Source of the DNA: Frigidibacter mobilis
Lineage (GTDB): Bacteria; Pseudomonadota; Alphaproteobacteria; Rhodobacterales; Rhodobacteraceae
Length of the DNA: 64,000 bases
Direction of reading: 5' to 3'
Assembly: GCF_001620265.1 (NCBI RefSeq)
Contig: NZ_CP012661.1
Coordinates: forward strand, 3,640,501 to 3,704,500
The notes under the pieces are model-generated. The model ran no database searches and was not told where the DNA came from. It saw only the letters and a program-made list of their open reading frames with translations. The translations under genes were made by a program, and so were the position numbers. Of the stretch, positions 5,297 through 21,302 are shown piece after piece (the first letter of the stretch is position 1; each line of letters begins with the position of its first letter).

Positions 5297-5968
5297 CTAT
5301 GCAGCCGCCCGGTGGTGCTGTCGCGAGGCGAGCCGCTTGCTGGCGGTGCGGGCGTGGTTGCCGTCCAGCTCAATCCCGATCCAATCGCGTCCAAGCTGCT
5401 GTGCTGCTGCCGGCGTCGAGCCGCTGCCGCAAAACGGGTCCAACAAAACGTCGCCCGGCTCGGTGAAAGCCTCGATCAACGGGCGCAACGCCTCAACGGG
5501 CTTTTGCGTCGGATGCAGCTTGTTGCCGGTATAGGGGAAGTCCAGAACGTCGGGGATGGGATGCTCGGGCAGGGAAACATTGCCCTTCGCCAGCAAGTAA
5601 GCCTGTTCGTGCTCATAGCGCAGGAAGCGGGCCGATGACGCATAACGCTTGCGGAACACAAGATGCCCGACGACGCGGAAGCCTGCCGACTTCCATGCGT
5701 CCATAAACAAATCCACCTTGTTCCAACCGTAGAAGCTTACGCAAAAGCCTCCATCCTTCAAAACGCGGTGCATCTGGTTGAAGGCTGGCCGGAGCCACCG
5801 GCCATTATCATCATTGGCGACGGTGCGGCCCTGCCGGTCGCGGAAGCGGGTTACATAGGGCGGATCGGTCAGGATGAAATCCACCGATCCCCTGTCGAAC
5901 GTCCGCATGGCGTCGATGCAATTGGCGTTGATGACTTCGTTGCGGGGGGTGTTGGCGTTGCCGGTCAT
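5297..5968 (-). CDS. Site-specific DNA methyltransferase (DPPY, N4/N6 class)
   Basis: A 223-residue protein with the beta-class order: N-terminal substrate motif FILTDPPYVTRF (motif IV, DPPY) followed by the target-recognition region and then, near the C-terminus, LDPFCGSGSTPAAAQQLGRDWIGIEL (motif I FCGSGST and acidic loop). HPTQKPVEALRPLIEAF is the usual motif before it. It methylates adenine or cytosine exocyclic amino groups. No partner endonuclease is adjacent, so it looks like a solitary methyltransferase that may protect or regulate the conjugative element; such genes are common in this element family. The 253 bp between it and the DUF6499 gene hold no gene. Confidence 0.9.
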   Translation of the reverse strand: MTGNANTPRNEVINANCIDAMRTFDRGSVDFILTDPPYVTRFRDRQGRTVANDDNGRWLRPAFNQMHRVLKDGGFCVSFYGWNKVDLFMDAWKSAGFRVVGHLVFRKRYASSARFLRYEHEQAYLLAKGNVSLPEHPIPDVLDFPYTGNKLHPTQKPVEALRPLIEAFTEPGDVLLDPFCGSGSTPAAAQQLGRDWIGIELDGNHARTASKRLASRQHHRAAA

Positions 5969-6024: not shown

Positions 6025-6283
6025 TGCCCGTCGGCGAGACCGGGTGTGCAAACGGAGGGAGGTTTCGCGGGGAACCGGCTGCACGGAGCGCGGCACGCGC
6101 GGAGGAAGCTGGGCGGAAGCCTCTCGAAGTGCGCCGAGGGCGGAGCCCTAAGCTGTCCTGCCAGACGGGATCGATGCTCGTCTATGTAATGAGTGAGTGG
6201 ACGAGTTTTTTCTGGTGCGCGCGATTTTCTTCCACTATAGTCACTGTGAATGGCCTACTGGATATAGAGGATTGAGGCAAGCA

Positions 6284-7390
6284 ATGGCAGTGAAGGGGAC
6301 AACGAAGGACGATTTCGTCCACCTTGCGAGGATCGCGCTATCCGATCGCCAGCAGGACGTTCATACCTTTCTACAGCGGATCGCGAAGCGTACAGATGAT
6401 GCCGATCTTGCAACCGCCCTCGTGGAACTTTTACGCAAACGTCCGACGCGATCGTCGGCACTGCGTCGCGCGCCCGCCATCGCACTTCCTGTCGATACGG
6501 ACACTCGGTTCCAATTGCTCCGCATGGAGGAGCATCCCGTCCTCCCACACGAACCAATTTACTCCGAGGTCGTGCGTGGCTTGCTCCAGCGCCTCATCGA
6601 TGAGCGCTTTCGGATTGACGCCTTGGTTCAGGCCGGTCTGGAGCCGACGAAAACCATCCTCTTCACCGGGCCTCCAGGCGTCGGGAAAACCATGGCGGCC
6701 CGTTGGATCGCAAGGGAGCTGGGGCGTCCGCTCTTAATCCTCGATCTGTCCGCAGTGATGAGTAGCTATCTTGGACGCACAGGGACGAACCTCCGTCACG
6801 TTCTCGACTACGCCAAGTCGCTCGACTGCGTTCTGCTCATGGACGAGCTGGATGCGATTGCCAAACGGCGTGACGATACAGGCGAAATTGGCGAATTAAA
6901 GAGGCTAGTTACGGTTCTCTTGCAGCAGCTCGATGACTGGCCGTCATCGGGGCTATTAATCGCAGCGACCAATCATGCAGAGCTTCTTGATCCGGCAGTA
7001 TGGCGTCGCTTTGACGAACTTGTCGAGTTTGATCTTCCTCAGCGCGAGGCAGCCAAAGCATTTGTTAATAGCTTGTTGCAATCAGTCTCGCCAAATGCTG
7101 GAGATTGGTCGGATGTTCTCTCGATCGCGTTAGCGGGACAATCTTTCAGTGACATCGAGCGTAAGTTAAACAGTGCTCGGCGCTCGGCTGCACTCAACGG
7201 CAACAACCTTGGCGATCATCTTGCCTCGCTTCTACAAGTCAGCGACCACTCCAAACGCGATCGAATTGATCTGGCAGCGCAACTCGTCAGCACTGGCCTC
7301 GTGTCTCAACGCCGGGCACACGAACTGACAGGAATCGCCCGCGATACGATTCGTGAGCGGCTAAGAAGCGCGACGGATCAGGGGGAGTAA
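6284..7390 (+). CDS. AAA+ family ATPase partnered with a subtilisin-like protease
   Basis: A 368-residue protein. Residues about 1-110 are helical and unknown. The AAA+ core follows with Walker A GPPGVGKT (about residue 128), Walker B CVLLMDELDAIAKRR, sensor-1 LIAATNHAELLD and an arginine-rich VWRRFDELVEF. The C-terminus (LTGIARDTIRERL) resembles a short helix-turn-helix. The ATG at 6284 is preferred: the frame is open to 6197 but the extra 29 residues look non-coding. The stop is 6 bp before the protease gene, so the two are co-transcribed. Such ATPase/S8-protease pairs recur in accessory islands and are suspected defence modules, with the ATPase presumably gating the protease. The function here is inference. 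Confidence 0.82.
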   Translation: MAVKGTTKDDFVHLARIALSDRQQDVHTFLQRIAKRTDDADLATALVELLRKRPTRSSALRRAPAIALPVDTDTRFQLLRMEEHPVLPHEPIYSEVVRGLLQRLIDERFRIDALVQAGLEPTKTILFTGPPGVGKTMAARWIARELGRPLLILDLSAVMSSYLGRTGTNLRHVLDYAKSLDCVLLMDELDAIAKRRDDTGEIGELKRLVTVLLQQLDDWPSSGLLIAATNHAELLDPAVWRRFDELVEFDLPQREAAKAFVNSLLQSVSPNAGDWSDVLSIALAGQSFSDIERKLNSARRSAALNGNNLGDHLASLLQVSDHSKRDRIDLAAQLVSTGLVSQRRAHELTGIARDTIRERLRSATDQGE

Positions 7391-8364
7391 CCGGCGATGG
7401 CAAAGCAGAATTTCCTTCTTGGGCGTGGCGAGCGATTGACCGAGGACGTTACGGTCCGTAGCGGCGGAGGCGAGAAGAAAGCGCCGTACACATTCGGCGA
7501 GGCCAGAAGCCGCTTAACACCCATGCTGGACCAGACCGTGAAAGAGGTCGATCGTCTTCCCGACGATGCCTATCCAAACGATCAAGCCGTGGTCTCCCTG
7601 ACGCTCAATCCGGAGTACATCGCAAAGTCTTACTTCCCTGCCGAACTGCTACGCGACGTTGGGATCGAGATCGTAGGCAGTCGACCCCGAAAAGTGACAC
7701 CGGAGAAGCGGTCACGCGACCGCGAGCCAACTGCTGCTATGACAACGGAACTGTTCGCTCGGGGGCCTCGCTCCGCCTTGCGGCATTGGAGCGCCTCCTT
7801 GCCAAATTGGGCAGCCGACCGGCGTAGCGCCGATGAGCTAGCCTCGATCGAGGAAATCTCCGCTCCGACCCCGAGCGAGAAGATCAAAGGCGCACTTCCG
7901 GCAACGGGAATGCTGCCAATGGAGGTTGTCCTTCACGCTGGCGAGCTGGAGGGCGAGGTCGATATGCTGGAAGAGTTTCAACGCTATCTTCGTAAGCGCA
8001 AAATACCGATAGCGTTTGGTCGTCGATTTTATGCCCAAGGGCTTTGTTTTCTCGAACTAGACGCGCCAGCAGAACATGCGGAAGAGGTTGCGACGTTTTC
8101 GACCGTGCGGGCTTTGCGGAAGATGCCCGAATTGCGCCTGTTGCGTCCGACGATCCGCTCACCTGGTCTACCGACATCGCGACCGGAATTGCCGACCGAG
8201 CCGCCAGTATCCGACGATGTGCGTGTCGCCATCTTCGACGGGGGTGTGCCGGAAGGCCATCCAATCTTGCAATGGGTGACGCCATACGAATTGGAAGGGA
8301 TGCAGCCAGCATCTCGTGAGTTCTATGAGCACGGAGTTGCCGTCAGCTCGGCAGCACTGTTTGG

Positions 8365-8756
8365 GCCTGATCGACCAGGACGCTAAACCCTTCCTCTACC
8401 AGCACATCGGCGACTACCAGGTGGAACAGATGCGCTCCACTATGGGCGCGAAGTTTCGCATCGGCGATCTGGCCGAAATCATCCTCGGCCTCTTCGGCGC
8501 GCTGCCCCTGCCCGTAGAGGAAAACCCGAACAAGAACATGGGCCGGCTTCAGGGAAGTAAAACGCTCGTCCTCGCCGACAGCCCGAACAAGATGACCGGC
8601 CTTGCCACGCTGCGCCGCGCCATTGAAATCCGCGACAACCTTATGGGCGGTTGGGATAAGGTGGTGATCCTCGGCTGGAACTTCTCGCCGACGATCGGGC
8701 ACGATATCGACCGACATTCCCCAAGTGGCCTGCCGCTTGACTTCAAGATCGCCTGA
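8365..8756 (+). pseudogene. Gene fragment, possibly C-terminal part of a DNA methyltransferase
   Basis: A frame continuous from the insertion boundary encodes LIDQDAKPFLYQHIGDYQVE, then FRIGDLAEIILGLFGAL, SKTLVLADSPNKMTGLATLR and DKVVILGWNFSPTIGHDI. The last block resembles the C-terminal region of some type III-like modification methyltransferases, a weak resemblance by eye. No start signal or catalytic motif is present, and the tail after GHDI loses family character. It is a passenger of the insertion rather than part of the protease. Confidence 0.45.
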
Positions 8757-8931
8757 TTTTGCTCGCTGGGCAAGCGTTTTTCGCCCCGAGCGGTGTCTGT
8801 CGTCGCGCAAACGGCCGAAGTCGGGTGGATCAAGCCTCGAACCCGCAGCATTCTGGCCCGGCAGAGCCGCTTTTCCGCGCGGCAGACGGACCTGTCCTGC
8901 CGCTTTCGTTCAGCTTGGGCATGGATCGTGG

Positions 8932-10287
8932 TCATGCGCATGACGGAGGCGTTCGAAGACGGCGGATGGCGGCAAGGACGGCCCGCACCATCGGGCCGGT
9001 GACGGCGACCTCGGCCAACTGGAAGGTAATGGCGCGGGCGTGGCGGACGACGCGGGCGCCGATCTTGATCAGCTTGAGTTGCAGGCTGGTCAACGACCAG
9101 TCCGCCATGGCCTCGGGCAGTTCGATGCAGCGCAGGAAGGTTGCCAGGTTGTAGGCCAGCGCGTGCAGTTGCAGCCGCACCTCGTTGTGCCGGAACTTCC
9201 GGCATGACAGCCGCGTCCAGCGAAAGGCATATTTGCCTTCCTTGATGTGCTGCTCTGCGGTGCCGCGCTGGTTGTAGAACCTCACCACCCAGTCTGGCTC
9301 CATCGGCAGGTTGGTGACGATGAAGCCGACTTTGGGGAACAGCTCGCCCGGATGCCATTCGATCTTGGCGATGACGCGGCGCGGCTTGTCCCAGGACGCC
9401 GCCTGATACTCGAAGTCCTCGAAGAACCGTTTGACCTTGGTCAGCGAAGGCCGTCCCACGGGCCGTGTCAGCCGATGCGCGATCTTCTCGCGCAAGACGG
9501 CGTTGGCGGGCAGACGGATGGCGTAGAAGAACCTGGCTTCTTCCAGCCGCATATAGATCGCGGGGATCGCGTAGGCAGCGTCGGCCCGGAAGAAGCGTCC
9601 ACCAAGGTCGCGGCCAGCATATCGGGCAATGACGGGATCAAGGACATCCCGCCAGCCATCGGCGCTGTGGACATTGCCGTTACGCAGGGCGCAGCGCTCC
9701 AGCATGCCAAACTGGTTGAACAAGAAGATGGGGTGATAGCAGGTGCAGTCGAAATGCCCGTTCCAGGCAGCACCTTCCTGATCGCCGTGGGTGGGGCTGA
9801 CCGAGCTGTCCATGTCCAGCACGATGTATTTCAACCCGTTGCGGTCATGAAACCGGTCGATCCATTGGCCGTTCAGATCGGCCAGCGCCGCCCGGTTCGC
9901 GGCCAGAGCCAGCGTCTCGGTCTCGAACCGTCCCATCTGCGATGCCGAAGCAGCTTGCGCCTCGACGGCCCTGCCGCCAACGACCTGACGCATCACGGGA
10001 TCGAGGGCCAAGCGGTCGGCATCGTTCACATCCTCGTATCCGGCCAGTCGTCCGAACACCGATTGCCGGAACAATCCGTCAAGCCGATGGAGCGTGTTCT
10101 TCCCGGTGCGGCTGTCTCGCAGCGCCTCCGACGCCAGATTGGACAGGCCGAGCACGTCATCAAGCTCGCGCATCACCAGCAGGCCACCGTCTGAACTGAT
10201 CTGCGCACCACGGAACTCCAGACGCACACGGCGGTCGAAATCAACCCGATCTCCCCGCGCCAAGCCCGCACCCTCCAGGTGATCCAT
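8932..10287 (-). CDS. IS1380-family transposase
   Basis: A 451-residue, apparently intact transposase. Recognisable blocks are VRLEFRGAQISSDGGLLVMR at the N-terminus, YIVLDMDSSVSPTHGDQEGA (first catalytic Asp), FFRADAAYAIPAIYMRLEEA (second Asp) and YNQRGTAEQHIKEGKYAF (catalytic Glu), with LHALAYNLATFLRCIELPE after it. These fit the DDE transposases of the IS1380/IS1247 group. The inverted repeats could not be located by eye, so element limits are not given. Confidence 0.9.
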   Translation of the reverse strand: MDHLEGAGLARGDRVDFDRRVRLEFRGAQISSDGGLLVMRELDDVLGLSNLASEALRDSRTGKNTLHRLDGLFRQSVFGRLAGYEDVNDADRLALDPVMRQVVGGRAVEAQAASASQMGRFETETLALAANRAALADLNGQWIDRFHDRNGLKYIVLDMDSSVSPTHGDQEGAAWNGHFDCTCYHPIFLFNQFGMLERCALRNGNVHSADGWRDVLDPVIARYAGRDLGGRFFRADAAYAIPAIYMRLEEARFFYAIRLPANAVLREKIAHRLTRPVGRPSLTKVKRFFEDFEYQAASWDKPRRVIAKIEWHPGELFPKVGFIVTNLPMEPDWVVRFYNQRGTAEQHIKEGKYAFRWTRLSCRKFRHNEVRLQLHALAYNLATFLRCIELPEAMADWSLTSLQLKLIKIGARVVRHARAITFQLAEVAVTGPMVRAVLAAIRRLRTPPSCA

Positions 10288-11637
10288 GAAACGCGCCCCT
10301 CGCAGCCGTCAACGCCATGATTTATATGCGAAATATCACGATTACGACAGCGAAATCAGCGACTTACTTGGAGAATGTGGGTTTGGAGCTCTAGATACAC
10401 GGAAGGCTATCCCTCGACCGTTCGCGGCGATCGATCATTATCGGGTTCTTGATGACGATCCAAAGCAGAACCCACATGAACTGTATGAAGTCCTCGAACG
10501 GATCGAGGGAGTTCTGTCGAGCCAAACCTATGACTTCATTAATTTGAGCATTGGCCCAAGCCTGCCGATTGAGGACGACGACGTACACGCTTGGACCGCT
10601 GTTCTCGATGATCGGCTTTCGCGAATTCCAACCCTGGCCGCGATCGCGGTCGGTAACGATGGAGAGGGCGACACGATCCTTGGTCTGGACCGAGTTCAAG
10701 TCCCTGCGGATTGCGTTAATGCCTTGGCGATTGGGGCGTGCAACACTCCTGACAAGGATTGGGAACGGGCGGCCTACAGCTCAGTGGGACCGGGGCGCAG
10801 CCCTGGAATTGTCAAGCCTGATTTGGTGGGTTTCGGTGGATCAGTCGAGCGACCGTTCCTTGTCCTTAGCCCAGACACGAGCCCGACGCTCGTTGGAACG
10901 GGTGGCACATCGTTTGCGACCCCCAGCATCGTGCGCATGGCCAGCGGTGTCCGGACGCATTTTGGAACCAAACTGAACCACCTAGCGATCCGCGCCCTGC
11001 TTGTTCACACAGCGGAGGAAAGTGCTCACGATATGCGTGAGGTCGGCTGGGGCCGCGCGGCACAGGACTTGAACGACATCGTTCTATGCGCCGATGACGA
11101 GGTCCGCATCGTTTATCAAGGCGAGATTTCTCCAGCGAAGTATATACGCGCTGCGATTCCAGTTCCGGACGGGGAGATTGTAGGTATGGTCAGCCTCTCA
11201 GCAACCATTTGCTATAAATCACAGACCGATCCACACCACCCCGGCAACTACACGCGCGCCGGACTGGAAGTAAGTTTCAGACCACACGACGAACGCTTTA
11301 GCCGAGATGGCCAACTCCATCCTGACACAAAGCCGTTTTTCGGATCATCACCAGCAGGAGCAGACGAAGAACAGCTTCGTCGCGACGCGATGAAATGGGA
11401 GAACTGCCTATATGCGATCAAGCGGATGCGTGGCAGTTCGCTGCATAACCCTATCTTCGACATTCACTATAACTCGCGACTTGAAGGACGAAACTTCGTG
11501 GGCGCTCCGAAGCTGCCCTACGCGCTAGTGGTGAGTGTTCAGGCCAACGGAATCGCTGATCTCTATGATCGGGTCGTGCGCAGATACGCAACCCAACTGG
11601 AACCGCTACGACCGATTCTCGAAGTGCCCCTTCGAAC

Positions 11638-12171
11638 ATGAGGCCACCGTCAATAAGACAAAAACTTTTCGATCGGGAGAGGATGCCAAAGATGGAAATG
11701 AAGGAGCGCCAGCAACTTCAGTATGAACACGATCTGCGAAATCACTTCGACATCCTATCACTTTCGCGGCTAGATCGACTGAAGCACTATGGACTTCACT
11801 TTGCGAAGTACGCCGGTCGCTTGGCGCGTGGTGATGCGGAAGCCAAGAGCCGCAATGAGACATTGGTCGATGCGTTTCTAGTCGCACTAAGCGCTGCGAA
11901 CGCTTTGAACCAAAAACTACAGAACGCGGAGGTTGACACCGAGGATGCACCATCGGACCTCGCGTTCACAGATCATGCTGGGCGCTTTGCCGATGCATGT
12001 GAGAAGATTGATCATTTGGAAGAATTTCGGTCCATCGCACTGGATGCGAATGCCGCAATCACCGATTGGATTGTGCGTAACGCGACGGTGCGAGGTGTCG
12101 ATCTCGACGCTTTGGTCGACGAGCGACGCAAGCAACTCGCCCAGAGGGCGGTTTACGCGCCGGGGTCCTAA
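11638..12171 (+). CDS. Uncharacterised helical protein coupled to a dCTP deaminase-like gene
   Basis: A 177-residue, mainly helical, charged protein. The central segment (LSRLDRLKHYGLHFAKYAGR ... ETLVDAFLVALSAANALNQKL) has the look of an all-alpha bundle comparable to MazG-like folds, but I see no clear EExxE metal-binding motif, so no activity is assigned. The start overlaps the protease stop (ATGA) and its own stop overlaps the next start (TAATG), so translation is coupled on both sides. An alternative start at 11693 has a better ribosome binding site (GAGAGG). Its role is probably tied to the nucleotide-binding protein downstream. Confidence 0.6.
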   Translation: MRPPSIRQKLFDRERMPKMEMKERQQLQYEHDLRNHFDILSLSRLDRLKHYGLHFAKYAGRLARGDAEAKSRNETLVDAFLVALSAANALNQKLQNAEVDTEDAPSDLAFTDHAGRFADACEKIDHLEEFRSIALDANAAITDWIVRNATVRGVDLDALVDERRKQLAQRAVYAPGS

Positions 12172-12806
12172 TGTTCTTATCAGGAGACTTACTCGCCGAG
12201 TGTGGGGGCTCATTGATCCAACCCTTCGATGCAAATCGAGTAGACTGCGCTGCGTACCCGTTGCGAATGGGCGACGAGGCTTATGTTAGTCCGGAGGGGC
12301 AAAAGGACCGCAGTCCCACCCTCCGTCAATTGAATCACGAAGAAGCTGTCGAAATTCCAGCCGGACAATTCGCGTTCCTGTTGACACGAGAGTTCGTCAC
12401 AGTCCCGCACGATTTGATCGCATTTATCAATATGAAAAATGGACTCAAGAGCAGCGGACTGGTGAATGTTAGCGGTTTCCACGTCGACCCTGGATATAAA
12501 GGCCGCCTTGTCTTTGCAGTCTTTAATGCCGGCCCGAAAAAAATTACTGTCAGGCAGAATGACGATGCTTTTTTAATTTGGTTTGCGCGGCTTGAAGGCG
12601 CGACAGAAAAGCACGCTCGAAAAAAGGCTGGTTTTAATAAAATTGAGAGCGAACTTATTGCTCGTGTTCCAGAAGAAAGTGCGTCTTTGAACTCACTTAC
12701 TGCTCGAATAGAGCGTATGGAGAAGCAGCTTTCATGGCGTCGTACGGCGATAATCTACATCGCTGGCATTATCTCGGCAGTTCTAGCAGGCTTAATCGTC
12801 AGATGA
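12171..12806 (+). CDS. dCTP deaminase/dUTPase-fold protein with C-terminal membrane anchor
   Basis: A 211-residue protein. Residues 55-125 carry the trimeric dUTPase-fold signature: VEIPAGQFAFLLTREFVTVP and FHVDPGYKGRLVFAVFNAGP, the equivalent of HxIDPGxxG in Dcd. In Dcd the catalytic Glu lies in LEFYN; the matching position here is Ala116 (LVFAVFN), and the RSSxxR substrate motif is replaced by KNGLKSS. Deamination is therefore unlikely; nucleotide binding or sensing is possible. After a charged linker a predicted coiled coil (SLNSLTARIERMEKQL) leads to a terminal membrane span (AIIYIAGIISAVLAGLIV). The region is AT-rich compared with its surroundings, as expected of acquired DNA. Confidence 0.72.
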   Translation: MFLSGDLLAECGGSLIQPFDANRVDCAAYPLRMGDEAYVSPEGQKDRSPTLRQLNHEEAVEIPAGQFAFLLTREFVTVPHDLIAFINMKNGLKSSGLVNVSGFHVDPGYKGRLVFAVFNAGPKKITVRQNDDAFLIWFARLEGATEKHARKKAGFNKIESELIARVPEESASLNSLTARIERMEKQLSWRRTAIIYIAGIISAVLAGLIVR

Positions 12807-12834
12807 ATAATTCAAATCCCTAGGAGGATCTGAG

Positions 12835-13254
12835 ATGGGTAAGGCTTTTATTTTTAATGAACACCTCGACCGAACCGACCGTGACGCGATAGAAGCAGCC
12901 GTTCGAGCGGCTGGATATGAACCGATCTACGGCGTCCCTGCAGACATATCCACCGTCGATGCGATCACAGATATCGGTGTTGTAGGTCTTCCCGTCGCGC
13001 CGGAGGACGAGGCCGTTGTCAACTCAGGAACGCGCTTATTCGGAGGAGCGGGCATTCGAGTGGTCGGCATTTGGCTTCACGAGGATGGGGTCGATGGAGT
13101 CGGTCTTCCTGAGGAATTAGAAAAGTACGGATCGACGGCAGTGAGAATTGGTTCGCCCGATCTTCCGGAAGCTTTGGCGGGCGAGCGTGATGTGTGGGAG
13201 GAGCCAAGTGGCGCAACTCGCGCTGCTCCGACGACGAAGCGCAATAAGTGCTGA
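12835..13254 (+). CDS. Small protein of unknown function in the nucleotide-modification cassette
   Basis: A 139-residue protein preceded by a perfect AGGAGG ribosome binding site. Alternating strands and helices (AFIFNEHLD, YEPIYGVP, VVGLPVAPED, GIRVVGIWLHEDGVDGVGLP, YGSTAVRIGSPDLPEALAG) suggest a small Rossmann-like fold related in outline to TIR or nucleoside-processing domains, but no diagnostic catalytic motif is seen. The C-terminus is a disordered basic tail. It ends 3 bp before the Nmad2 gene and is clearly in the same operon. Confidence 0.65.
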   Translation: MGKAFIFNEHLDRTDRDAIEAAVRAAGYEPIYGVPADISTVDAITDIGVVGLPVAPEDEAVVNSGTRLFGGAGIRVVGIWLHEDGVDGVGLPEELEKYGSTAVRIGSPDLPEALAGERDVWEEPSGATRAAPTTKRNKC

Positions 13255-13257
13255 GCC

Positions 13258-13847
13258 GTGAGTCGGCTCTATTCCTACGTCGTTCAGCATGATCACGGCT
13301 TTGCACCAAATCCCTTCATGGGGGTGTGCACGCTGGCCAATTGTAAGCCGCAAATTCGGAAAGCTGCGAACGTCGGCGATCTCGTCATCGGAACGGGGTC
13401 CGCAGACATTCATGCTGACGGTCATCTCGTCTACTGGATGCGTGTTGCGGAGATCATCACATTCGATGAATACTGGGAGGCTCCCCGGTTTAGCCGGAAG
13501 AAGCCGGTCATGAATGGGAGCCTGATGCAGCGCTACGGGATAACATCTATTATTCTGGTGCCGATGGCACATATCAGCAACTCGATTCTTTCCACAGCGA
13601 AGAGAACGGGAGCCTTAGCGTTCCCAATCGCACACGTGATACTGAAACGACCTCAAGGGTGCTGATCGGCGGCGAGTTCGCTTACTACGGCAAGGCTGCT
13701 CTTCCGATCCCACAGCCCTTGCGGTTCGTCGTGAAGGCGGGACCAGGCCATAAATGTCGGTTTGCTGATCTGGAGCGAGCTTCGGTAGAGAGTTGGCTCG
13801 CGACATTACCGGAGCGCGGATATGTGGGAGAACCAGGACGATGGTGA
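13258..13847 (+). pseudogene. Nmad2-family (nucleotide modification associated) protein, frameshifted
   Basis: The GTG-started frame gives SRLYSYVVQHDHGFAPNPFM, CTLANCKPQIRKAANVGDLV and GTGSADI, the characteristic Nmad2 N-terminus. At the GGG at 13537-13539 the family sequence moves to another frame: YGDNIYYSGADGTYQQLDSF through GEFAYYGKAALPIPQPLRFV to the stop at 13845. Restoring one G joins both parts into about 196 residues. Nmad domains were described beside DNA base-modification enzymes of phages and bacteria. The lesion may be real or a sequencing error. The product as written would lose its C-terminal half. Confidence 0.75.
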
Positions 13848-14533
13848 TGGGGTCGCGAGGCAATATCGACATATTCCTTGAGAATCTTGCATCATTTAAG
13901 GCGGAACGGGTCTTCAATCCGTGGTCAGCGAATTGCGAGGAAGTGGATGTGGAAGACAGCTTCAACATCCGCCTCAATAACCTCCGCACAGTTCTGCGCG
14001 CGTGCGCAGATGCCGACGAAGTTGACGTTTGGGTCGGCCGCGATCTCGGCTGGCGTGGAGGGCGGCGGACGGGAGTCGCGTTCGTTGATGAGGTGTCATT
14101 GAGCGACTATGCAAGTTCCATCGAAGTCGCCGGATTGGTGAAGGCAACGGTGGGCCCGGTCATGAAAGAGCGTACCGCAACCGAGATACACCTCGCTCGA
14201 AGGCGAATCTCGCGGAAGCTATTTTTCTGGAATGTCTTCCCCTTCCATCCGCATGAGGCGAACCAACCGCAATCGAACCGCATGCACACGCGAACAGAGC
14301 GGGAGATCGGGCTATCGTTTTTGAAGGTGGCCCTATCGCTTCTCCCCGTTCGCCGCGCAATCACCATTGGCAACGATGCGACCCAGGCGGTACAGGCAAT
14401 GAATGTAAAGTGCTGCCCCGTCCGCCATCCAAGCTACGGCGGACAGCGGGACTTTCATCGACAGCTCAATGCCCATTATGGGCTGGTATCCGAAGAGGAT
14501 ACGCAACCAAGCCTATTCGACGGCCATACCTAA
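13841..14533 (+). CDS. Uracil-DNA glycosylase superfamily protein
   Basis: A 230-residue protein. The family blocks are VFNPWSANCEEVD, WVGRDLGWRGGRRTGVAFVD (first active-site loop), FFWNVFPFHPHEANQPQSNR, RAITIGNDATQAVQAM and VRHPSYGGQRDF, the HPS-type second loop. This is the broad UDG fold as annotated in many accessory islands; whether uracil or another modified base is removed cannot be told. The start is the ATG at 13841, which overlaps the Nmad2 stop (ATGGTGA). The frame is open upstream to 13793 but that part duplicates Nmad2 coding sequence. It closes the cassette. Confidence 0.78.
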   Translation: MVMGSRGNIDIFLENLASFKAERVFNPWSANCEEVDVEDSFNIRLNNLRTVLRACADADEVDVWVGRDLGWRGGRRTGVAFVDEVSLSDYASSIEVAGLVKATVGPVMKERTATEIHLARRRISRKLFFWNVFPFHPHEANQPQSNRMHTRTEREIGLSFLKVALSLLPVRRAITIGNDATQAVQAMNVKCCPVRHPSYGGQRDFHRQLNAHYGLVSEEDTQPSLFDGHT

Positions 14534-14695
14534 CTAGCGCTTGACGGGCCAGCGACGCCCTCTCGCAGCCCTTTCACATTCGGATGATTATGCGCATTAT
14601 AGGGCTATAGCGTAGACGTAGTTCTCCGTTTCATCGTTCTCGGCCCGCCATTCGCCTAAAATTCTCTTTGATTATCAGCCGCTTGCGGGACTGAT

Positions 14696-14722
14696 TGTCA
14701 AACCGCTTCGGCGGGTTTGACA
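14696..14722. terminator. Palindrome spanning the integrase stop codon
   Basis: TGTCAAACC (14696-14704) and GGTTTGACA (14714-14722) are perfect complements around a 9-base loop. It sits across the integrase stop codon and could terminate transcription from either side; only a weak T-rich tail follows. Confidence 0.5.
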
Positions 14723-15765
14723 GTTGCAGTTTCGTCAGTTGCCTTCCCGAGCGCAAGCATTGCCCGCGCCGCGAGGTCTTTTCTGCTGGCAGCAACGGTG
14801 TATCGAGTCACCTCTGCCAGCGATCTATGGCCGGAAATAGCCATGATTTCGTGGGCGCTGCATCCCGCTTCCGCCAAGCGGCGGCAGGTTGCCTTGCGCA
14901 ACCCATGAGGCGACAGGCCAGCGGGGAGTCCCGCTTCCTTCACCATATCGCGGAACCAGTTTGTGAAGCCCGCTGGCACAAACGGCTTGCCGTGCGCGGT
15001 CATCAGAAAGGTCAGGTTTGTCAGTGGCAGGTTGTCCAGCAACGCCTTCAGATCCGGGTGCAGGGGGATATGCACGTCTTGCCCTGTCTTCTGCTGGGTG
15101 ACTGCCAGAATATCCTTGCGGACATGCTGCCGCCCCATGCGGACGACATCACTGCGCCGCTGACCCGTATAGAGCAACAGCATCAAGGCAAGGTGTGCCC
15201 GGCTCCCCGCCTTATGCTTGGCAATGAAGGTCGCGATGTGATGCTCTTCCCACGTTAGAAAACCGCCCGTTTTTCGCTTGGGCTTTCGGACGCCCTGAGT
15301 CGGATCGTCGCCGCGCCAGCCAAGATCAATTGCGTGACGCATTAGTAGATGGATCATCCTCAACATGTTCGCGGCGGCTGCGGGCGTGTCAGCCATGCCG
15401 CCGATGATGTTCTGCACATGGCGCTTTTCCATGTGAACCACGCGCTTGTCACCATGCCCGGCACGGAAGCGTTCAATGATGCCGCGATAGGTCGTCTTGG
15501 TAGAAGCCGCCAAGCCGGTAAAGTCGCCGGTCTTGTAATAGCTGGCCACAAGTGCCGCGACGGTTCCGGGCTTGGATCGGCTCACGGCGGTTTCCAATCG
15601 CTCACCCACTGCCGCCTTTTCGTAAGCGGCCATGAAGTCGGGACTCCATGGAAGGCCCGGCAGCGCGACACGCGGAAAGCCGGGGCGGCGGTAATACCAC
15701 CGGACCTTGCCATGCCGGTCTTCGAATCCTTGGCAATACTTCGGAGGCTTGTGCATTTGCTTCAT
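14698..15765 (-). CDS. int: Tyrosine recombinase (phage-type integrase)
   Basis: A 355-residue integrase. The N-terminal arm-binding/core-binding part spans about residues 1-160; the catalytic domain carries YTGQRRSDVVRM (Arg I), the lysine beta-hairpin region AVTQQKTGQDVHIPL, SPHGLRKATCRRLAE (HxLR) and GHRSLAEVTRYTVAA (His/Tyr motif). The ATG at 15765 is used because an upstream in-frame TTG would begin inside the preceding gene. It integrates and excises the satellite. Its 3' end faces the cargo region, so one attachment site should lie between 14534 and 14700. Confidence 0.93.
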   Translation of the reverse strand: MKQMHKPPKYCQGFEDRHGKVRWYYRRPGFPRVALPGLPWSPDFMAAYEKAAVGERLETAVSRSKPGTVAALVASYYKTGDFTGLAASTKTTYRGIIERFRAGHGDKRVVHMEKRHVQNIIGGMADTPAAAANMLRMIHLLMRHAIDLGWRGDDPTQGVRKPKRKTGGFLTWEEHHIATFIAKHKAGSRAHLALMLLLYTGQRRSDVVRMGRQHVRKDILAVTQQKTGQDVHIPLHPDLKALLDNLPLTNLTFLMTAHGKPFVPAGFTNWFRDMVKEAGLPAGLSPHGLRKATCRRLAEAGCSAHEIMAISGHRSLAEVTRYTVAASRKDLAARAMLALGKATDETATVKPAEAV

Positions 15766-15767
15766 GC

Positions 15768-16013
15768 TCAGTCCCAATCGTTGGTTTCAGGGACTGCATC
15801 TTCCCCCGGCAACGCATCGAACGCCAAGTCCAAAGCGCGCACGTCCCAAATCTTGCGGGCACCGACGCGCTTGGGACCGGGCATTTCGCCAGCTATCACC
15901 ATTTTGTCAAAGGTCGTGGGGCTGACGCCGATGTAACCCGCCGCCTCGCCACGCGACAGCCCACGCCGGGAAGGCGGTGCAATCGGTGAAGAGGGGCGGG
16001 ATTCCATCTGCAT
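15768..16013 (-). CDS. AlpA-type helix-turn-helix regulator or excisionase
   Basis: An 81-residue protein with GLSRGEAAGYIGVSPTTFDK and RVGARKIWDVRALDLAFDAL, the small winged-helix fold of AlpA/Xis proteins. It ends 2 bp before the integrase start and is surely coexpressed with it. In satellites the AlpA protein activates integrase and excision. The start at 16013 (MQMESRPSS) is chosen because further upstream the frame overlaps the preceding gene. Confidence 0.78.
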   Translation of the reverse strand: MQMESRPSSPIAPPSRRGLSRGEAAGYIGVSPTTFDKMVIAGEMPGPKRVGARKIWDVRALDLAFDALPGEDAVPETNDWD

Positions 16014-16017
16014 TGAA

Positions 16018-16212
16018 TCAGTCTGCGAAAGCCTTGCCGTCAGCCTTGGCTTGCGCCGCAGCATGGGCTTTGATTTCATCAGCGGTTGCAGGACGTGCCG
16101 ACTTCAGCGCGTCAAATTGCTTGGCCTCAGACGGGGTGGCGTCGAAGACCGTGCGGGCGGGAATCACTTCCTCACCGCGCAGAATCTTGTTTTTTGAGAA
16201 CAGTTTAGCCAT
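16018..16212 (-). CDS. Small head-region protein of unknown function
   Basis: A 64-residue protein (MAKLFSKNKILRGEEVIPAR) with a strand-rich N-terminus and an Ala/Lys-rich helical tail. Short proteins of this kind follow DUF2190 genes in head clusters, but no family could be named with confidence. The ATG has GGAGATCC upstream. Confidence 0.6.
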   Translation of the reverse strand: MAKLFSKNKILRGEEVIPARTVFDATPSEAKQFDALKSARPATADEIKAHAAAQAKADGKAFAD

Positions 16213-16224
16213 GGCTGGATCTCC

Positions 16225-16551
16225 TCAGAAGTCGCTAAGGCGGACTTCAACGGTTGCGGTCGAGGCAGCGGCGACAGCGACAGCCACGCCCAGTTTCGTG
16301 TTGTCGGTAGCCGTGCTGGTCGCGAGTCCGGCTGTGGAATCCCAATAGACGACAGCGCCGACCGCGAAGGCGTCAGCGGCCACTTTCGGAAGCCCGAAAA
16401 CGCCAACGGTCACAACGTCCACGTCTTCACCGATTGCGGCATCCCCGGCAGCGATGCCTTTGATTTCGCCAGCGATCACGACGCCCCCAGATGCCACGGC
16501 GGCAGGCGCGGAAAACGTGAGATTCGTTCCCGGTTGAATGTAATTCTTCAT
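16225..16551 (-). CDS. DUF2190 family capsid-associated protein
   Basis: A 108-residue Ala/Val/Gly-rich beta protein: MKNYIQPGTNLTFSAPAAVA, VVIAGEIKGIAAGDAAIGED, VGVFGLPKVAADAFAVGAVV and YWDSTAGLATS. This is the DUF2190 pattern; members sit beside the major capsid gene in many tailed phages and are thought to decorate or stabilise the head. It lies 2 bp from the head-joining gene upstream and 12 bp from the small gene downstream, inside the head operon. Confidence 0.82.
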   Translation of the reverse strand: MKNYIQPGTNLTFSAPAAVASGGVVIAGEIKGIAAGDAAIGEDVDVVTVGVFGLPKVAADAFAVGAVVYWDSTAGLATSTATDNTKLGVAVAVAAASTATVEVRLSDF

Positions 16552-16553
16552 GA

Positions 16554-16775
16554 TTAGACCCCCTTATGGGCGTTGATGTAGACGATTGCTGATTTGCGCC
16601 CGGCTTGAAGGGCAGCAATTTCCCGGTCGAGGGCGGTTATCGCCCCCGAGAGTTCAGCGTCAGAACGATAGACAATCCGTTCGCCGTTCTGGTCGGTCAC
16701 GCTCTGGATGCCCTGAAAGCGAGCATCCAGAAGACGTTCCCGGAAGGCTTGAAGATCCAGAAGCGTGTGGGCCAT
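16554..16775 (-). CDS. Head-tail joining protein (gpW-like)
   Basis: A 73-residue helical protein, MAHTLLDLQAFRERLLDARF, followed by an acidic region (RSDAELSGAITALDREIAAL) typical of the small gpW-like joining proteins that close the portal vertex. Its first base overlaps the last base of the capsid fusion gene (TAATG). It is the only possible connector in the element, which fits a particle designed to accept a tail made elsewhere. Confidence 0.72.
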   Translation of the reverse strand: MAHTLLDLQAFRERLLDARFQGIQSVTDQNGERIVYRSDAELSGAITALDREIAALQAGRKSAIVYINAHKGV

Positions 16776-18622
16776 TAGCCTGCGTTCCGGTAAGCGCCGC
16801 GCCAGTCGGTCGCGCCTGCACCGTAGTCCAGCGTGACACGGAATTCGCGGCCCAGAACTTCCCAGCCGTCCCGCGAGGACAGTTGCGGCCCCGGTGCCGA
16901 CGACAGGTAGGCGTATTCCAGAACAGGCGAAGTCGTGGGATCGCCGAACAGGAACCACTGGAAGCCGGTCAGGCGGGGTTCGACCAGCAGCGTCAGCTTG
17001 CCCGCGAAGGGGTTCACGTCATCGCTGTTGCTGGGGTTGATGGAAGCCAGCAGCTTTTCGGCGGTGGTCTCAAGCGCAGGACCGACCAGCAGGAAGCGCG
17101 GCGTGACGGAAACCGGAGTCTTGCCGTCCAGACCTTTCTGCGAACGCAGCGCCAGCCGTGCTGCCGACAGTGTGGTTTCATCAGGGACAGCACCGCTTGC
17201 AGCAAGGTTGCCGTGGGTCGCATGGAACAGGTTCACGCCGTCGCCCATCTTGACGCCGCCGCCGCTGTTCGCGGTCAGCAGTGCCAGAAGCTGGGTGGCT
17301 TCGGTCTGTGCCGCAGCGGACCCCATCAGTTCGCCCCAGCGCGAGAAAGCGCCCAGATCGTCATTGATGATCGCTTTGCGCGACAGGCTGAAGATGCCGC
17401 CAAAGGTTTCCAAGCTGTAACCCTCTTGGGCTTCACCAGTCGTCAGGGCTTTGATTTCCCCCGATTCAGTAACCTTCTGAAGCCCCGACATCTCGCCCAG
17501 TTTGAGGACCGACATCGGGCGGAAGTCTGCCGCCGTGCGCTGGCGGGCCAGTTGCTTCAGCGGCGACTGCGCAGCCTGATAGGCGTTTGTCAGCACACGG
17601 TTGCCAGCGCCGGTCAGCAGTTCGGGAAAGTCGCTGGTCGTGTGCATGGCGGCACGGGTGAGCATCTCTTCCCGACCCATGGTCGCAACCGACACGCCGG
17701 AACGGGTCAGAGCGTCACGGGCGAAGTCCTGAAGGCCCATCTGCGCATACGGGCGCGCGGCATCGCTGGGCGTGGTGCCCATCATGCGGCAGGCAAGGGC
17801 TTCGGTCTGGCGTTCGCGAATGGCGGCGGGATCTTCGGACGATGCGCCGACACGAATGCGGGGCGTTTCCCGGCTGCGACGTGCGGTCAGCGCGGCTTCC
17901 CGCGCATCCTCGCGGATTTCGTCGTCGGTCAGTTCTTCGCCAGCTTCCGCCATGCGGGTCTGCCAGTCTTCGCCCAGATTGTGGGCGGCGCGAACGCGGG
18001 CAATCAGCGCCTCACGGTCGTCAGTCTCTTGGATATCCTTCGGCATTTCTGCACTCCTGAAGCGTGATTGAGGGTCGGCGGGCACGGCGACTGCGGACGC
18101 CTCATGGATTGCCCAAGCCGCCGCCGTGCGGACTCGGGTCTTGCGACCGGCGATAACTTCGACGGTCTCGCGCCACTGGGTGACGCGATAGCCCACGCTG
18201 ACGCCCCGCAGGGTGCCCTCGCGGATTCTCTGGATTGCCGGGGCCGCGTCTTCGGCTTGCGACAAGCGAAGCGTGACAATCAGCTTGCTGTCTTCGAAGC
18301 GGTGCGCCGTGACGACGCCGATGACATCACGCGCACCGCCCTGTTGATGCGCGTCAAGCAACGGCGCGCCGACCAATTCGGCAGTGTCCAGCCCAGCGGG
18401 ATCAAGGCGTTCGAGATATGCGCCTTGTCGGTCACGCCGGACCACGGCTGCGAAGGTGCTGGCGACAGCTTCAACCGTCCAAGCCTCATCGTCATAGGTT
18501 GACGGCGAGAAGAGTGCCGCGCGCGTGTGCTTTTCGCCAAGCGTCTGGTCGGCGGGTCTGTTGCTTGGCAAAGCCGTGACGCGGGACGCCTTGGCAGGAT
18601 TGCCAGTCAAACGAATGTTCAT
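16775..18622 (-). CDS. Prohead protease/major capsid protein fusion
   Basis: A 615-residue protein. Residues about 30-190 form the prohead protease (ELVGAPLLDAHQQGGARDVI with the catalytic His; REGTLRGVSVGYRV with the Ser). A charged helical linker (about 200-290) serves as the scaffold. Residues about 300-615 are a Mu gpT-like major capsid domain (DFPELLTGAGNRVLTNAY, GGIFSLSRKAIINDDLGAFS, FHATHGNLAASGAVPDETTL, VTPRFLLVGPALETTAEKLL). Cleavage during assembly should separate the parts. Single-chain fusions of this kind are known in alphaproteobacterial prophages. It overlaps the portal stop by 4 bp. Confidence 0.9.
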   Translation of the reverse strand: MNIRLTGNPAKASRVTALPSNRPADQTLGEKHTRAALFSPSTYDDEAWTVEAVASTFAAVVRRDRQGAYLERLDPAGLDTAELVGAPLLDAHQQGGARDVIGVVTAHRFEDSKLIVTLRLSQAEDAAPAIQRIREGTLRGVSVGYRVTQWRETVEVIAGRKTRVRTAAAWAIHEASAVAVPADPQSRFRSAEMPKDIQETDDREALIARVRAAHNLGEDWQTRMAEAGEELTDDEIREDAREAALTARRSRETPRIRVGASSEDPAAIRERQTEALACRMMGTTPSDAARPYAQMGLQDFARDALTRSGVSVATMGREEMLTRAAMHTTSDFPELLTGAGNRVLTNAYQAAQSPLKQLARQRTAADFRPMSVLKLGEMSGLQKVTESGEIKALTTGEAQEGYSLETFGGIFSLSRKAIINDDLGAFSRWGELMGSAAAQTEATQLLALLTANSGGGVKMGDGVNLFHATHGNLAASGAVPDETTLSAARLALRSQKGLDGKTPVSVTPRFLLVGPALETTAEKLLASINPSNSDDVNPFAGKLTLLVEPRLTGFQWFLFGDPTTSPVLEYAYLSSAPGPQLSSRDGWEVLGREFRVTLDYGAGATDWRGAYRNAG

Positions 18623-19980
18623 TCTTTGGAATCCTTTTGCTCTGAAAGCGTTTTCCCAAGGGCATCCGCTTGGATTTCTGCGTCGAGGTCTTCCAAGACC
18701 CAGCCACGTTCTGCGACAGCCTTGCGGCGCGAGGTCAGGCCCAGTTCGAGTTCGGCGCGGGTCGCGGCCAGATCCTTAGCTGGGTCCACTTGGAGAGGCT
18801 TCGGGGCCAGCCAGTCGGCGGAGAGGAAATCGCGGGGGTTCTGTTCGAAGTCCGGTGCGTCGATACCGCCCGAAAGGATTCCGTGCGTGATGACAGCCCG
18901 CCAGACCGGCGCGAGGAACCGGGGCACAAGCACGCCGTATTGCACCTGTTCAACGCGCTGACGGAACGGCAGCAGGCCAGCCCTCAATGAACTGTAGTTG
19001 GCACCCGACAGATCGCCCGACACCAAATGGTCGGGAAGCCCCATGCCAGCCGCGATCTTGCGCAGATTGTGACGCAAGAACGCATCGGCCTGCTGAAGCT
19101 GTTGCGGACTGTTGAACTTGATGTCTTCGCCAACACCCAGACGGATCAGCGCGCCCGGCTCCATGCTGGCGGTATCTCCCCCGCCGTGCGGGTCGGTCGT
19201 CGCGCCGTTCACGTCCACGATGAAGCCGCTGTGCATGGCGGCGACCTTAGCGGCCATTAGCAAAGCATCTTCATAGCCGTCAGTGTCGCTGGCGGTCAGG
19301 ATGACTTGCGCCAGCCACGACACACCGCGCACCTGTCCCGGCGCGTTCGGACGGAAGACATGCAAAACGCTGTCTGCATCAACCCGCTGGGCTGGGGCAT
19401 AAGATGCGAAGGTGCTGGCAGGACGTTCGGGCAGGATGTGGAAGGCCACCCGCCGCCCGTTCTGGTCCAGTTCGACGCCCGCAAAGATCGTCCGACCTTC
19501 GGACAGTTCGACCGTCTTGGACTCGTCCAGCAACTCGGGCGGCAGGATGCGGATTTGCGGGCCGTCATCCGAGTCGATCAGCAGCGCCAAGCCTTCGCCA
19601 GCGACTACCATGCTATGCGCAATTGCGGCCTGTTGACCCCAAAAGTCGGTCAGACCTTCAGCGTCTGCGCGTTCGGCCCACGTCTCAAAATAGGCGTTGA
19701 TCGCGCGGCGCATCTCGGGATCGGGGTGCTTGCTTGTGGGCTGAAGGCCGGGACCGACAAGCGCACCCGTCCAATTCGCCACGCCCTGCGCGATCCAAGG
19801 ATTGTTCATCGACAGATAGGCGGCACGGCTGCGCAGCGACTGACCGGCTGCGGCAATCTCGGGATTGATGCGGCCAAAGGTGCCCATCCCAAATCCCCGA
19901 CGCCCGCCAGCAGCGCCGTCAAAACGACGGGTTTGCATGGGTTCAGCTTTGCGAAAGATGCGCGCGAAGGGGTTCTGCAT
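18619..19980 (-). CDS. Phage portal protein (lambda gpB family)
   Basis: A 453-residue portal. Family blocks include RSRAAYLSMNNPWIAQGVAN, WTGALVGPGLQPTSKHPDPE, EGLALLIDSDDGPQIRILPP, FRPNAPGQVRGVSWLAQVIL, AGMGLPDHLVSGDLSGANYS and SLRAGLLPFRQRVEQ. It forms the dodecameric entry ring for DNA at one head vertex. The ATG at 19980 (MQNPFARIFRKAEP) is used; a TTG farther upstream overlaps the preceding gene. An intact portal together with terminase and capsid indicates that this element makes its own heads. Confidence 0.92.
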   Translation of the reverse strand: MQNPFARIFRKAEPMQTRRFDGAAGGRRGFGMGTFGRINPEIAAAGQSLRSRAAYLSMNNPWIAQGVANWTGALVGPGLQPTSKHPDPEMRRAINAYFETWAERADAEGLTDFWGQQAAIAHSMVVAGEGLALLIDSDDGPQIRILPPELLDESKTVELSEGRTIFAGVELDQNGRRVAFHILPERPASTFASYAPAQRVDADSVLHVFRPNAPGQVRGVSWLAQVILTASDTDGYEDALLMAAKVAAMHSGFIVDVNGATTDPHGGGDTASMEPGALIRLGVGEDIKFNSPQQLQQADAFLRHNLRKIAAGMGLPDHLVSGDLSGANYSSLRAGLLPFRQRVEQVQYGVLVPRFLAPVWRAVITHGILSGGIDAPDFEQNPRDFLSADWLAPKPLQVDPAKDLAATRAELELGLTSRRKAVAERGWVLEDLDAEIQADALGKTLSEQKDSKE

Positions 19981-19984
19981 GGGA

Positions 19985-20530
19985 TCAGCCTTTCGCAAAA
20001 AGCGGAAGGATTTCAGCGATCAGTTCAGACGCGGGCAGCGTAAATCGTGCGATCTCTGCTTTCGGGCCTTTGCCAATCATGCGCAGTGCGTTTTCGACAC
20101 GTTCGCTGCGCGGGCGGTCCCGTTTCCAATCCGCACGGACGAAGACAGTCCGGTCTGTCATCATGATGATATGAAGGGCGAACGCCTCACCAGCTTCAAG
20201 GCGCTGGATCGCCTCGGCAGCATGGGAAACGCCCATTTGACCACCGTTCGGCATTTCCTCACGGCGTTCACCCGACCCGCTAAGCCAGCGCGTCAGGGTA
20301 TCAATCGAAGCGCGGGGGATGCCAAACTCAAACGCGATCTGCGCCAGCCGGATCGTCGCGGCGGCGGCGCGGTCATACAGGAAAATGCGCCCCTGCTGCG
20401 TAGTCGGCGGCAGGAAGTGACGCTGCACAAGGTTGCGCAGGCCTTTCTCGAACTGCGCGTGATGCTCATCTTCCACACCGTCTAGGCGTGCGAAGCGGGC
20501 TGCAATCTCGGCAAGTGTATAGTCGGTCAT
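19985..20530 (-). CDS. Uncharacterised protein between portal and terminase genes
   Basis: A 181-residue protein, MTDYTLAEIAARFARLDGVE, with an Arg-rich central helix pair (RAAAATIRLAQIAFEFGIPR, DTLTRWLSG) reminiscent of MerR-type DNA-binding helices, and a C-terminal half rich in strands (FALHIIMMTDRTVFVRADWK). A ribosome binding site GGAGC precedes the ATG. Its position between terminase and portal, where helper-interaction or packaging-specificity genes often lie, is notable, but no function can be assigned. Confidence 0.6.
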   Translation of the reverse strand: MTDYTLAEIAARFARLDGVEDEHHAQFEKGLRNLVQRHFLPPTTQQGRIFLYDRAAAATIRLAQIAFEFGIPRASIDTLTRWLSGSGERREEMPNGGQMGVSHAAEAIQRLEAGEAFALHIIMMTDRTVFVRADWKRDRPRSERVENALRMIGKGPKAEIARFTLPASELIAEILPLFAKG

Positions 20531-20700
20531 GTTCAGGGCTCCTTCGCTCTCCTTATCTTAGTTTTAAGTTGACGAGTCCAGAACTTTCTGCGATATCGGA
20601 GTCAGTTCCAAGTTCCATGAACACGGGCGGGGCGGCTTCGGTCGCCCTGTCCATCTGATACCACCGGGCGGATGAGTCCTCCTGACCGAACCCCGGCGGT

Positions 20701-20747
20701 GAAAGGCCCCCGTCTCGCTGTTTGCGGCAGCAGGGCGGGGGCCTTTC
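20701..20747. terminator. Strong GC hairpin, probable terminator
   Basis: GAAAGGCCCCCG (20701-20712) and CGGGGGCCTTTC (20736-20747) are perfect 12-base complements, followed on the plus strand by TCATTCTG. It precedes the two plus-strand genes and lies upstream of the minus-strand 181-residue protein, so it may insulate the inserted plus-strand pair. Confidence 0.6.
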
Positions 20748-20773
20748 TCATTCTGAAAGACAAAGGAATTGCC

Positions 20774-21094
20774 ATGCACAGCGACATTCAGAAAACCTGC
20801 GATGCGGACGAACGCTTTGCCGCGCGCTTCCCCGACCGGCAATTTTGGTTGCGCCCAGCATCACGCGGTGAGGTGCGAGAGATTTTTGGCCGGAAGGTGC
20901 GAGGCTGGCACCCATGTCTGGCAGTATGGCGCGAGGGCGACATTTACCGGAAGGTGCCTTTTTTTGCCACGACCCGCGATGTTGCCGACGCCAGCGACGG
21001 AGTCTCGGCAGAGACAGCGGTCAATGCTATTGAGTCCTTGCGTGAAGGCGTTGTTCTGCGCATCCTCATAACACGCTCAGGGCGAGCGTTATAG
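20774..21094 (+). CDS. Small plus-strand accessory protein of the satellite
   Basis: A 106-residue protein (MHSDIQKTCDADERFAARFP) with AAAGGA upstream. The body FWLRPASRGEVREIFGRKVR ... YRKVPFFATTRDVADASDG suggests a compact alpha/beta domain; no family is recognised. It runs against all packaging genes in the element and is followed 10 bp later by a second small gene. Oppositely oriented gene pairs inside packaging modules are usually morons, often carrying defence or superinfection functions, which is a guess here. Confidence 0.6.
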   Translation: MHSDIQKTCDADERFAARFPDRQFWLRPASRGEVREIFGRKVRGWHPCLAVWREGDIYRKVPFFATTRDVADASDGVSAETAVNAIESLREGVVLRILITRSGRAL

Positions 21095-21104
21095 GAGTAA
21101 CTAA

Positions 21105-21302
21105 ATGGATATTAGAATTTCACACAATATTGGCGGTTCAGAATACAAGGTATTTGAACAAAAGAACGGCTGTGATCTCTGCCACAAAACTGGCGATGAA
21201 GAACAAAAAGTATACTATTTCAAGGATGGGAAAGGGCCTTTCGACAAGCCCCATTTGACCCTACGGATTGGGCTTAACCTCCTAACCACTTCGACCGAAT
21301 AA
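21105..21302 (+). CDS. Small Cys-containing protein of the plus-strand accessory pair
   Basis: A 65-residue protein, MDIRISHNIGGSEYKVFEQK, with a CDLCHKTG motif in the middle that could bind metal, and a lysine-rich centre. GGAG lies in front of the ATG. Its codon use is more AT-rich than that of the neighbours, suggesting recent arrival. The 3' end overlaps, on the opposite strand, the frameshift-corrected end of the large terminase gene. Confidence 0.55.
   Translation: MDIRISHNIGGSEYKVFEQKNGCDLCHKTGDEEQKVYYFKDGKGPFDKPHLTLRIGLNLLTTSTE

Follow-up and report, generated by a model that had tools for sequence, protein, structure and literature searches.

Phages that carry unusual bases escape both restriction and CRISPR, and few bacterial counters to them are known. 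The glycosylases Brig1 and Brig3 are described as protecting Escherichia coli from T-even phages (PMC11078745, PMC13160076), and the text of the DefensePredictor study presents predicted systems with NMAD, UDG, dUTPase, MazG and MazG-C domains, together with protection by systems containing 5-hydroxymethyldeoxyuridine (5-hmdU) kinase and thymidylate synthase domains (PMC13092281); NMAD also stands among the abbreviations in that study's figure of validated systems. Here we describe a cassette of five co-directed genes, H, D, S, N and U, which fill positions 11638-14533 on the + strand of a 64,000-nucleotide stretch of Frigidibacter mobilis (contig NZ_CP012661.1, positions 3,640,501 to 3,704,500; hereafter, the window). 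H-D-S-N-U is almost certainly a real conserved unit, and we infer that it probably has an immune role in defence.

Results

The first-pass annotation of this DNA had proposed five overlapping or near-overlapping genes, and all five were located on the + strand:

11638..12171, + strand: H, a helical protein of no known family (no match in Pfam, NCBIfam or PADLOC scans)
12171..12806, + strand: D, a Dcd/dUTPase-fold domain with one C-terminal membrane helix (PF22769, 6.3e-15)
12835..13254, + strand: S, a divergent TIR-like protein with an R-N-K-C C-terminal tail (hhalign, PADLOC ThsB, column counts)
13258..13847, + strand: N, an Nmad2 protein (PF18753, 1.9e-39 and 1.8e-7), its frame broken near 13.53 kb
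13793..14533, + strand: U, a UDG-superfamily protein (PF03167, 6.6e-5)

The membrane-anchored dUTPase-fold protein, the Nmad2 protein and the UDG-family glycosylase of that annotation are thus recovered as D, N and U, while its 'small unknown protein', S, is small indeed and can now be placed as a divergent TIR. The junctions between the genes are tight or overlapping: H and D have one base in common, S starts 28 bases downstream of D and is preceded by an AGGAGG-like site, N begins 3 bases past S, and the start of U most likely lies inside the stop codon of N, at the probable position 13847 given by a 228-residue database entry. The probable start of H is 11692, from an identical database entry of 159 residues.

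The annotation had also named co-occurrence in other genomes as a check against a chance mixture of genes, and when this was run the cassette survived, with the same order in four other genomes. The exact order H-D-S-N-U is found in metagenome-assembled genomes of Halomonas sp. HL-48 (L009) and Rhodobacter sp. (L010), and the order H-D-S-N-MazG_C-U in a Rhizobiales bacterium (L011) and in Mesorhizobium ciceri WSM1271 (L012); the window and all four share the single-base H-D overlap and the short gaps. Compared with L009, L010 and L011, all five genes, and each of the two pieces of N, are under purifying selection (pN 0.12-0.29, with U against L011 at 0.45; pS 0.62-0.87), synonymous changes being close to saturation in many of these comparisons.

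N is intact in L009-L012. In the window its PF18753 match is split over two reading frames, so N is broken in this genome, where the cassette is probably impaired. The same break is present in an IMG/VR contig, L041, which matches the window across all 9081 of its bases and may come from the same isolate. This IMG/VR provirus record (window 12171-21251) begins inside the cassette and counts D-S-N-U as viral. We rejected a phage origin: H was not found in viral_contigs in a pattern-based search, and S was found there solely in the IMG/VR contig identical to the window.

Scans of S returned a sole match, to PADLOC ThsB (7e-8), and comparison over the full length with six TIRs that adjoin Nmad2 genes gave an hhalign probability of 97.5 and an E of 8.7e-12 (one comparison). 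S also holds, within the cassette, the position that an intact ThsB-type TIR has in relatives. The glutamate of the TIR motif WVxWE is catalytic. In an alignment of the window protein with 31 of the 34 homologues found, this column contains Glu in none of the 32 rows, and the preceding column contains it in two; being homologous to TIRs and without this residue in every row, S is a TIR that lacks the known catalytic residue. An R-N-x-C terminus is present in 31 of the 32 rows, the remaining row being cut short, and a C-terminal cysteine at or beside the end is common to S and the Nmad2-adjacent TIRs. Loci in which such TIRs also carry the conserved cysteine tail are L028 and L059-L063.

The fold of D, for which an NCBIfam dCTP deaminase match falls below its cut-off, is supported by PDB matches and by alignment with E. 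coli Dcd. A coiled linker and a membrane helix are added to this fold; the hydrophobic segment begins at residue 192, and of the 26 distinct D frames 25 have a C-terminal segment of this kind (KD19 of at least 1.57), the exception being that of L013, which is cut short. Ala116 of D falls in a column where the E. coli Dcd chains differ (Glu in 1xs1, Ala in 1xs4), and 1xs4 scores better. This is the column of the deaminase residue Glu138 of E. coli Dcd, and among the 26 distinct frames it is occupied by Ala (16), Ser (9) or Thr (1), never by Glu.

Relatives of H number 1203 and span alphaproteobacteria to haloarchaea, and their invariant His, Asp and Glu residues suggest an enzyme or a metal site. 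The protein weakly matches a PHROG of unknown function, and when 49 members were searched at E 5, every Pfam family was matched by at most four of them. We considered H as a MazG, given weak hints from its two best PDB matches, which are MazG-like (E about 0.1), and from hhalign comparison with MazG_C proteins (E 0.035). A controlled test did not support this kinship: 25 chromosomal MazG frames gave an hhalign E of 0.44, which lies within the range of 14 families used as controls (0.063-0.91), whereas the positive control reached 5.4e-5. The distribution of H is patchy: among 385 genomes of the class 3 have it, and among 394 of the family 4 do, the genome of the window being counted in both.

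In the window copy of U the PF03167 match scores 23.4 bits, just short of the cut-off of 24.3; its relatives exceed this cut-off, and PF03167 is annotated on most of the 120 best. The motifs GRDLG, NRxHT and RHPSYGG, the first of them unusual, are conserved in 11 aligned relatives. Among the 120 best relatives listed, 12 are close (at least 65% identity, longest contig of at least 3 kb, own genome excluded), and 8 of these 12 sit on contigs that match the contig of an S relative in size, which points indirectly to a linkage of U with S.

To describe the wider neighbourhoods, we searched with H through plasmids (6 records), genome contigs (26 loci) and further genome sets of the class and family (4 genomes), which together with the window make 37 H loci; this count excludes L044, on a contig of equal size to that of L010, and L041, a copy identical to the window. 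Neighbours within 7 kb were labelled by their best hidden Markov model match (E < 1e-6), with models built from the same loci; a weak S-like gene (1.5e-5) and a second, host-type UDG in L024 are uncounted. D directly follows H in 26 of the 37 loci (26/31 bacterial, 0/6 haloarchaeal), at spacings from an 83-nucleotide overlap, measured on the longest reading frame, to a gap of 19 nucleotides. Within 7 kb of H we found U in 9 loci, DUF1643 in 8 and PF18723 in 14: exactly one of the three is present in 31 loci, none in 6 and two together in no locus. The chance of no overlap among the three families is 5e-7 (1.5e-5 over the 31 bacterial loci), a descriptive figure that ignores shared ancestry. 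N is present in 7 of the 37 loci and S in 5. Genome-wide rates in the class are low for PF18723 (6/190), for PF07799, that is DUF1643 (9/190, including one genome in which it lies near H), and for PF18753 (12/289), so these neighbours of H occur far above background. DUF1643 and PF18723 were rejected as homologues of UDG (hhalign E 0.2-0.3, no meaningful PDB match); that they are equivalents of U is a guess.

Parts of the cassette are also combined in other ways. L024 has H, the weakly S-like gene, N and U, and in L028 an H-D-U set lies on the strand opposite to an N that is preceded by a true ThsB_TIR gene. In five of the six haloarchaeal loci H is paired not with D but with a zinc-ribbon protein, the SLATT-related DUF4231 and ThsB_TIR; in L006 and L031-L034 the order is zinc-ribbon protein, H, DUF4231, ThsB_TIR, beside a PF18723 gene. 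Conversely, 10 Nmad2 loci without H were examined, from 10 of the 11 other genomes with an Nmad2 match. A TIR-N-MazG_C-U set in one direction is found in 3 of them (L060, L062 and L063), and in L061 the four genes recur as two pairs, TIR-N and MazG_C-U, that face each other; L059 has TIR-N with PF18723 and MazG_C, L064 has N with MazG_C and PF18723, and 4 of the 10 contain none of the TIR, MazG_C, UDG or PF18723 partners. Since the H-D and TIR-Nmad2-UDG sets are found separately, the window cassette looks like a merger of two modules. The PADLOC model PDLC00418, 'ThsB', spans the full TIR of L060 (4.6e-93), so PADLOC would score the TIR-Nmad2-MazG_C-UDG (or PF18723) set as the ThsB of Thoeris alone.

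Other genes recur beside H. A set of HTH, M78 (ImmA/IrrE), in some cases a C1 peptidase, and an unknown or 'thymidylate synthase' gene adjoins it in 12 of the 37 loci (L003, L007, L008, L011, L012, L014, L017, L020, L021, L025, L026 and L029), often with a 4'-phosphopantetheinyl transferase gene (9/37 loci); the label 'thymidylate synthase' (TS5) comes from one RefSeq record, and two members scanned gave no Pfam match. In L017, L020 and L021 (about 10372-12648), H is followed by a calcineurin-like phosphoesterase protein of some 720-760 residues, not by D.

The cassette of F. mobilis is flanked by the following genes:

5297-5968, strand opposite to IetA: DNA methylase gene, left of IetA (PF01555; PADLOC type II MTase, 4.9e-94)
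6197..7390, + strand: IetA-like AAA ATPase of the neighbouring system (PADLOC IetA, 3.3e-81)
7397..11641, + strand: IetS-like S8 protease, interrupted, in frames 7397-8386 and 10286-11641 (PADLOC IetS, 4.1e-14 and 1.2e-29)
8932..10287, - strand: gene of an IS1380-family transposase, separating the two pieces of IetS (NF033539, 6e-116)
14698..15777, - strand: tyrosine integrase adjoining the cassette (PF00589, 6.3e-20)

The ATPase/protease pair that had been noticed beside the cassette is therefore IetA/IetS-like by PADLOC; a search for terminal repeats of the IS1380-family element found none. The conjugative setting proposed earlier is supported as well: the left end carries genes of SLT, S26 peptidase, DUF2840 and RovC/DUF2285 type, and a weak VirB4-type match (E 7e-4) lies some 10.2 kb beyond it, outside the window, with four more elsewhere in the genome. 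IetAS was rejected as a part of the cassette: it stands beside H in none of the 36 other loci, although some upstream flanks are short (for example, 1.2 kb in L043).

Discussion

How might such a cassette work? We suggest, from the families of its products, that H-D-S-N-U would act as one operon-like unit in which U attacks a non-standard pyrimidine in invading DNA, most likely a deoxyuridine-type base, much as Brig acts on modified cytosines; elsewhere, DUF1643 or PF18723 proteins would perhaps replace it. N may read the modified base or its product, and S, a TIR minus its motif Glu, could occupy the TIR's position while serving as a non-enzymatic binding or scaffold subunit. D would bind the modified nucleotide at the membrane, forming with H a membrane arm that leads to growth arrest or permeabilization. 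A deoxyuridine-type nucleotide seems the likeliest trigger because uracil-type chemistry recurs in these loci, in the dUTPase fold, the UDG, the proteins annotated as 5-hmdU kinase and one record annotated as thymidylate synthase. The first-pass annotation had imagined nucleotide sensing at the membrane with a glycosylase acting on modified DNA, and this is partly borne out: it fits the parts, namely an anchored nucleotide-binding fold without the deaminase Glu in D and a member of the Brig superfamily in U.

That the cassette is a mobile, nucleotide-centred anti-phage system, with the mechanism in the detail given above, is a reading we put forward tentatively. It is supported by the gene order, by selection, by the recurrence beside H of D and of exactly one of U, DUF1643 and PF18723, by the kinship of S with TIRs, by the lost Glu in both S and D, by patchiness, by the plasmid and conjugative settings, by the adjacent IetAS and by the precedents for glycosylases and nucleotide domains in defence. 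Several points weigh against it. IetAS accompanies H in this genome alone (0/36 other H loci), a spot check of 10 proteins that flank H elsewhere found PADLOC matches in only 2, and the defence context outside this genome is thin. The substrate is a guess drawn from family names. The retained Asp of the VDPGY motif in D would also be expected of an active dUTPase, and D may truly have this activity. The relatives of U number at least 6439. As H-D and TIR-N-MazG_C-U are each found apart, they may act separately, as two systems.

Indeed, the cassette could consist of two adjacent defence modules, H-D with or without a partner and S-N-U, working independently and co-transcribed merely for convenience. 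Most H loci, as their counts of N and S show, have H-D without these two genes, and 5 of the 10 Nmad2 loci that lack H include a TIR. Yet the order is fixed, with the one-base overlap and short gaps, in the window and in L009-L012, and U adjoins H-D without N in L004 and L008, which ties U to H-D directly. We regard two independent modules as an unlikely explanation.

A second possibility is nucleotide hygiene or repair on behalf of the mobile element, without any immunity: D, and perhaps H, would hydrolyse dUTP or damaged deoxynucleotides, and U would remove uracil from DNA. The VDPGY Asp of dUTPase type is present in the window and in 23 of the 26 distinct D frames overall (Asn in 2, and one frame cut off), the U superfamily consists mostly of repair enzymes, and the best solved relatives of U, including TM0511, are family-4 UDGs, although these matches are weak (E about 0.01). 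Housekeeping of this kind sits poorly with a membrane anchor on D, with TIR-like and Nmad2 partners, with a patchy distribution and with the SLATT and ThsB_TIR partners of H in haloarchaea, and it appears improbable to us.

More improbable still is self-modification, in which the genes would produce or preserve a modified base in the DNA of the element itself, perhaps against restriction, and would not attack foreign DNA. The Pfam names of MazG_C, PF18723 and Nmad2 come from base-modification contexts, and a DNA methylase gene lies in the neighbourhood, but the family scans of the five genes show no modified-base synthase or transferase, and a glycosylase would attack the very base so made. 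A chance mixture of separate insertions, as the nearby transposase and integrase genes, the mobile setting and the broken N might suggest, can practically be dismissed, because the same gene order recurs in distant genomes, the genes are under purifying selection, and 8 of the 12 close relatives of U are size-matched by contig to those of S.

If the anti-phage reading is true, it would show how bacteria read modified nucleotides, by coupling a nucleotide-binding fold at the membrane with an exchangeable base-handling enzyme, and new receptor roles would emerge both for the fold of a nucleotide enzyme and for a TIR; intact copies of the cassette are present in environmental genomes. A bolder extension, which we consider doubtful, is that an immune family not yet described would be built around H, with D in bacteria and with SLATT and TIR in haloarchaea. 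In bacteria the altered dUTPase/deaminase fold would then serve at the membrane as the receptor of a deoxyuridine-type nucleotide specific to phages, and base specificity would be exchanged as a module through a choice among three base-handling enzymes. In the branch of the window the TIR would have decayed to a non-enzymatic subunit with a conserved C-terminal cysteine tail.

How new is the cassette? The first-pass annotation knew of no named system with this set, and this stands as far as scans against PADLOC, Pfam and NCBIfam go, but not for the parts, which the DefensePredictor text already predicts (PMC13092281). A literature search judged by title and abstract recognized no description of the H-D or S families, the 2015 nucleotide-centric survey (ref. 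59 of PMC13092281) lying outside it. Compared by text and legends, the DefensePredictor systems share NMAD, UDG, dUTPase and MazG-C domains with the cassette and its relatives, and the passages compared name neither H nor a membrane Dcd-fold protein (PMC13092281). Brig1 and Brig3 resemble U in belonging to the UDG superfamily and in a putative attack on modified bases, a likeness at the level of the superfamily; they differ in acting alone or with BapA, the passages compared describing no partners like H, D, S or N (PMC11078745, PMC13160076).

The stand-alone TIR-Nmad2-MazG_C-UDG module has the same N and U families and a TIR homologous to S, but it has no H-D in the stretch examined, keeps the motif Glu in its TIR and includes a MazG_C that the window lacks. 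Thoeris is similar in that S and related TIRs match the PADLOC ThsB models, and it differs in that S lacks the motif Glu and that the seven frames scanned gave no ThsA match. Dcd and dUTPase enzymes share the domain fold of D, whereas D has lost the deaminase Glu and gained a coiled linker and a membrane helix. IetAS, an AAA ATPase with an S8 protease, is a separate named system directly upstream, whose IetS is not intact here but lies in two pieces. The cassette is therefore best read as a variant of the predicted TIR/Nmad2/MazG_C/UDG systems, equipped with what may be a new H-D membrane arm.

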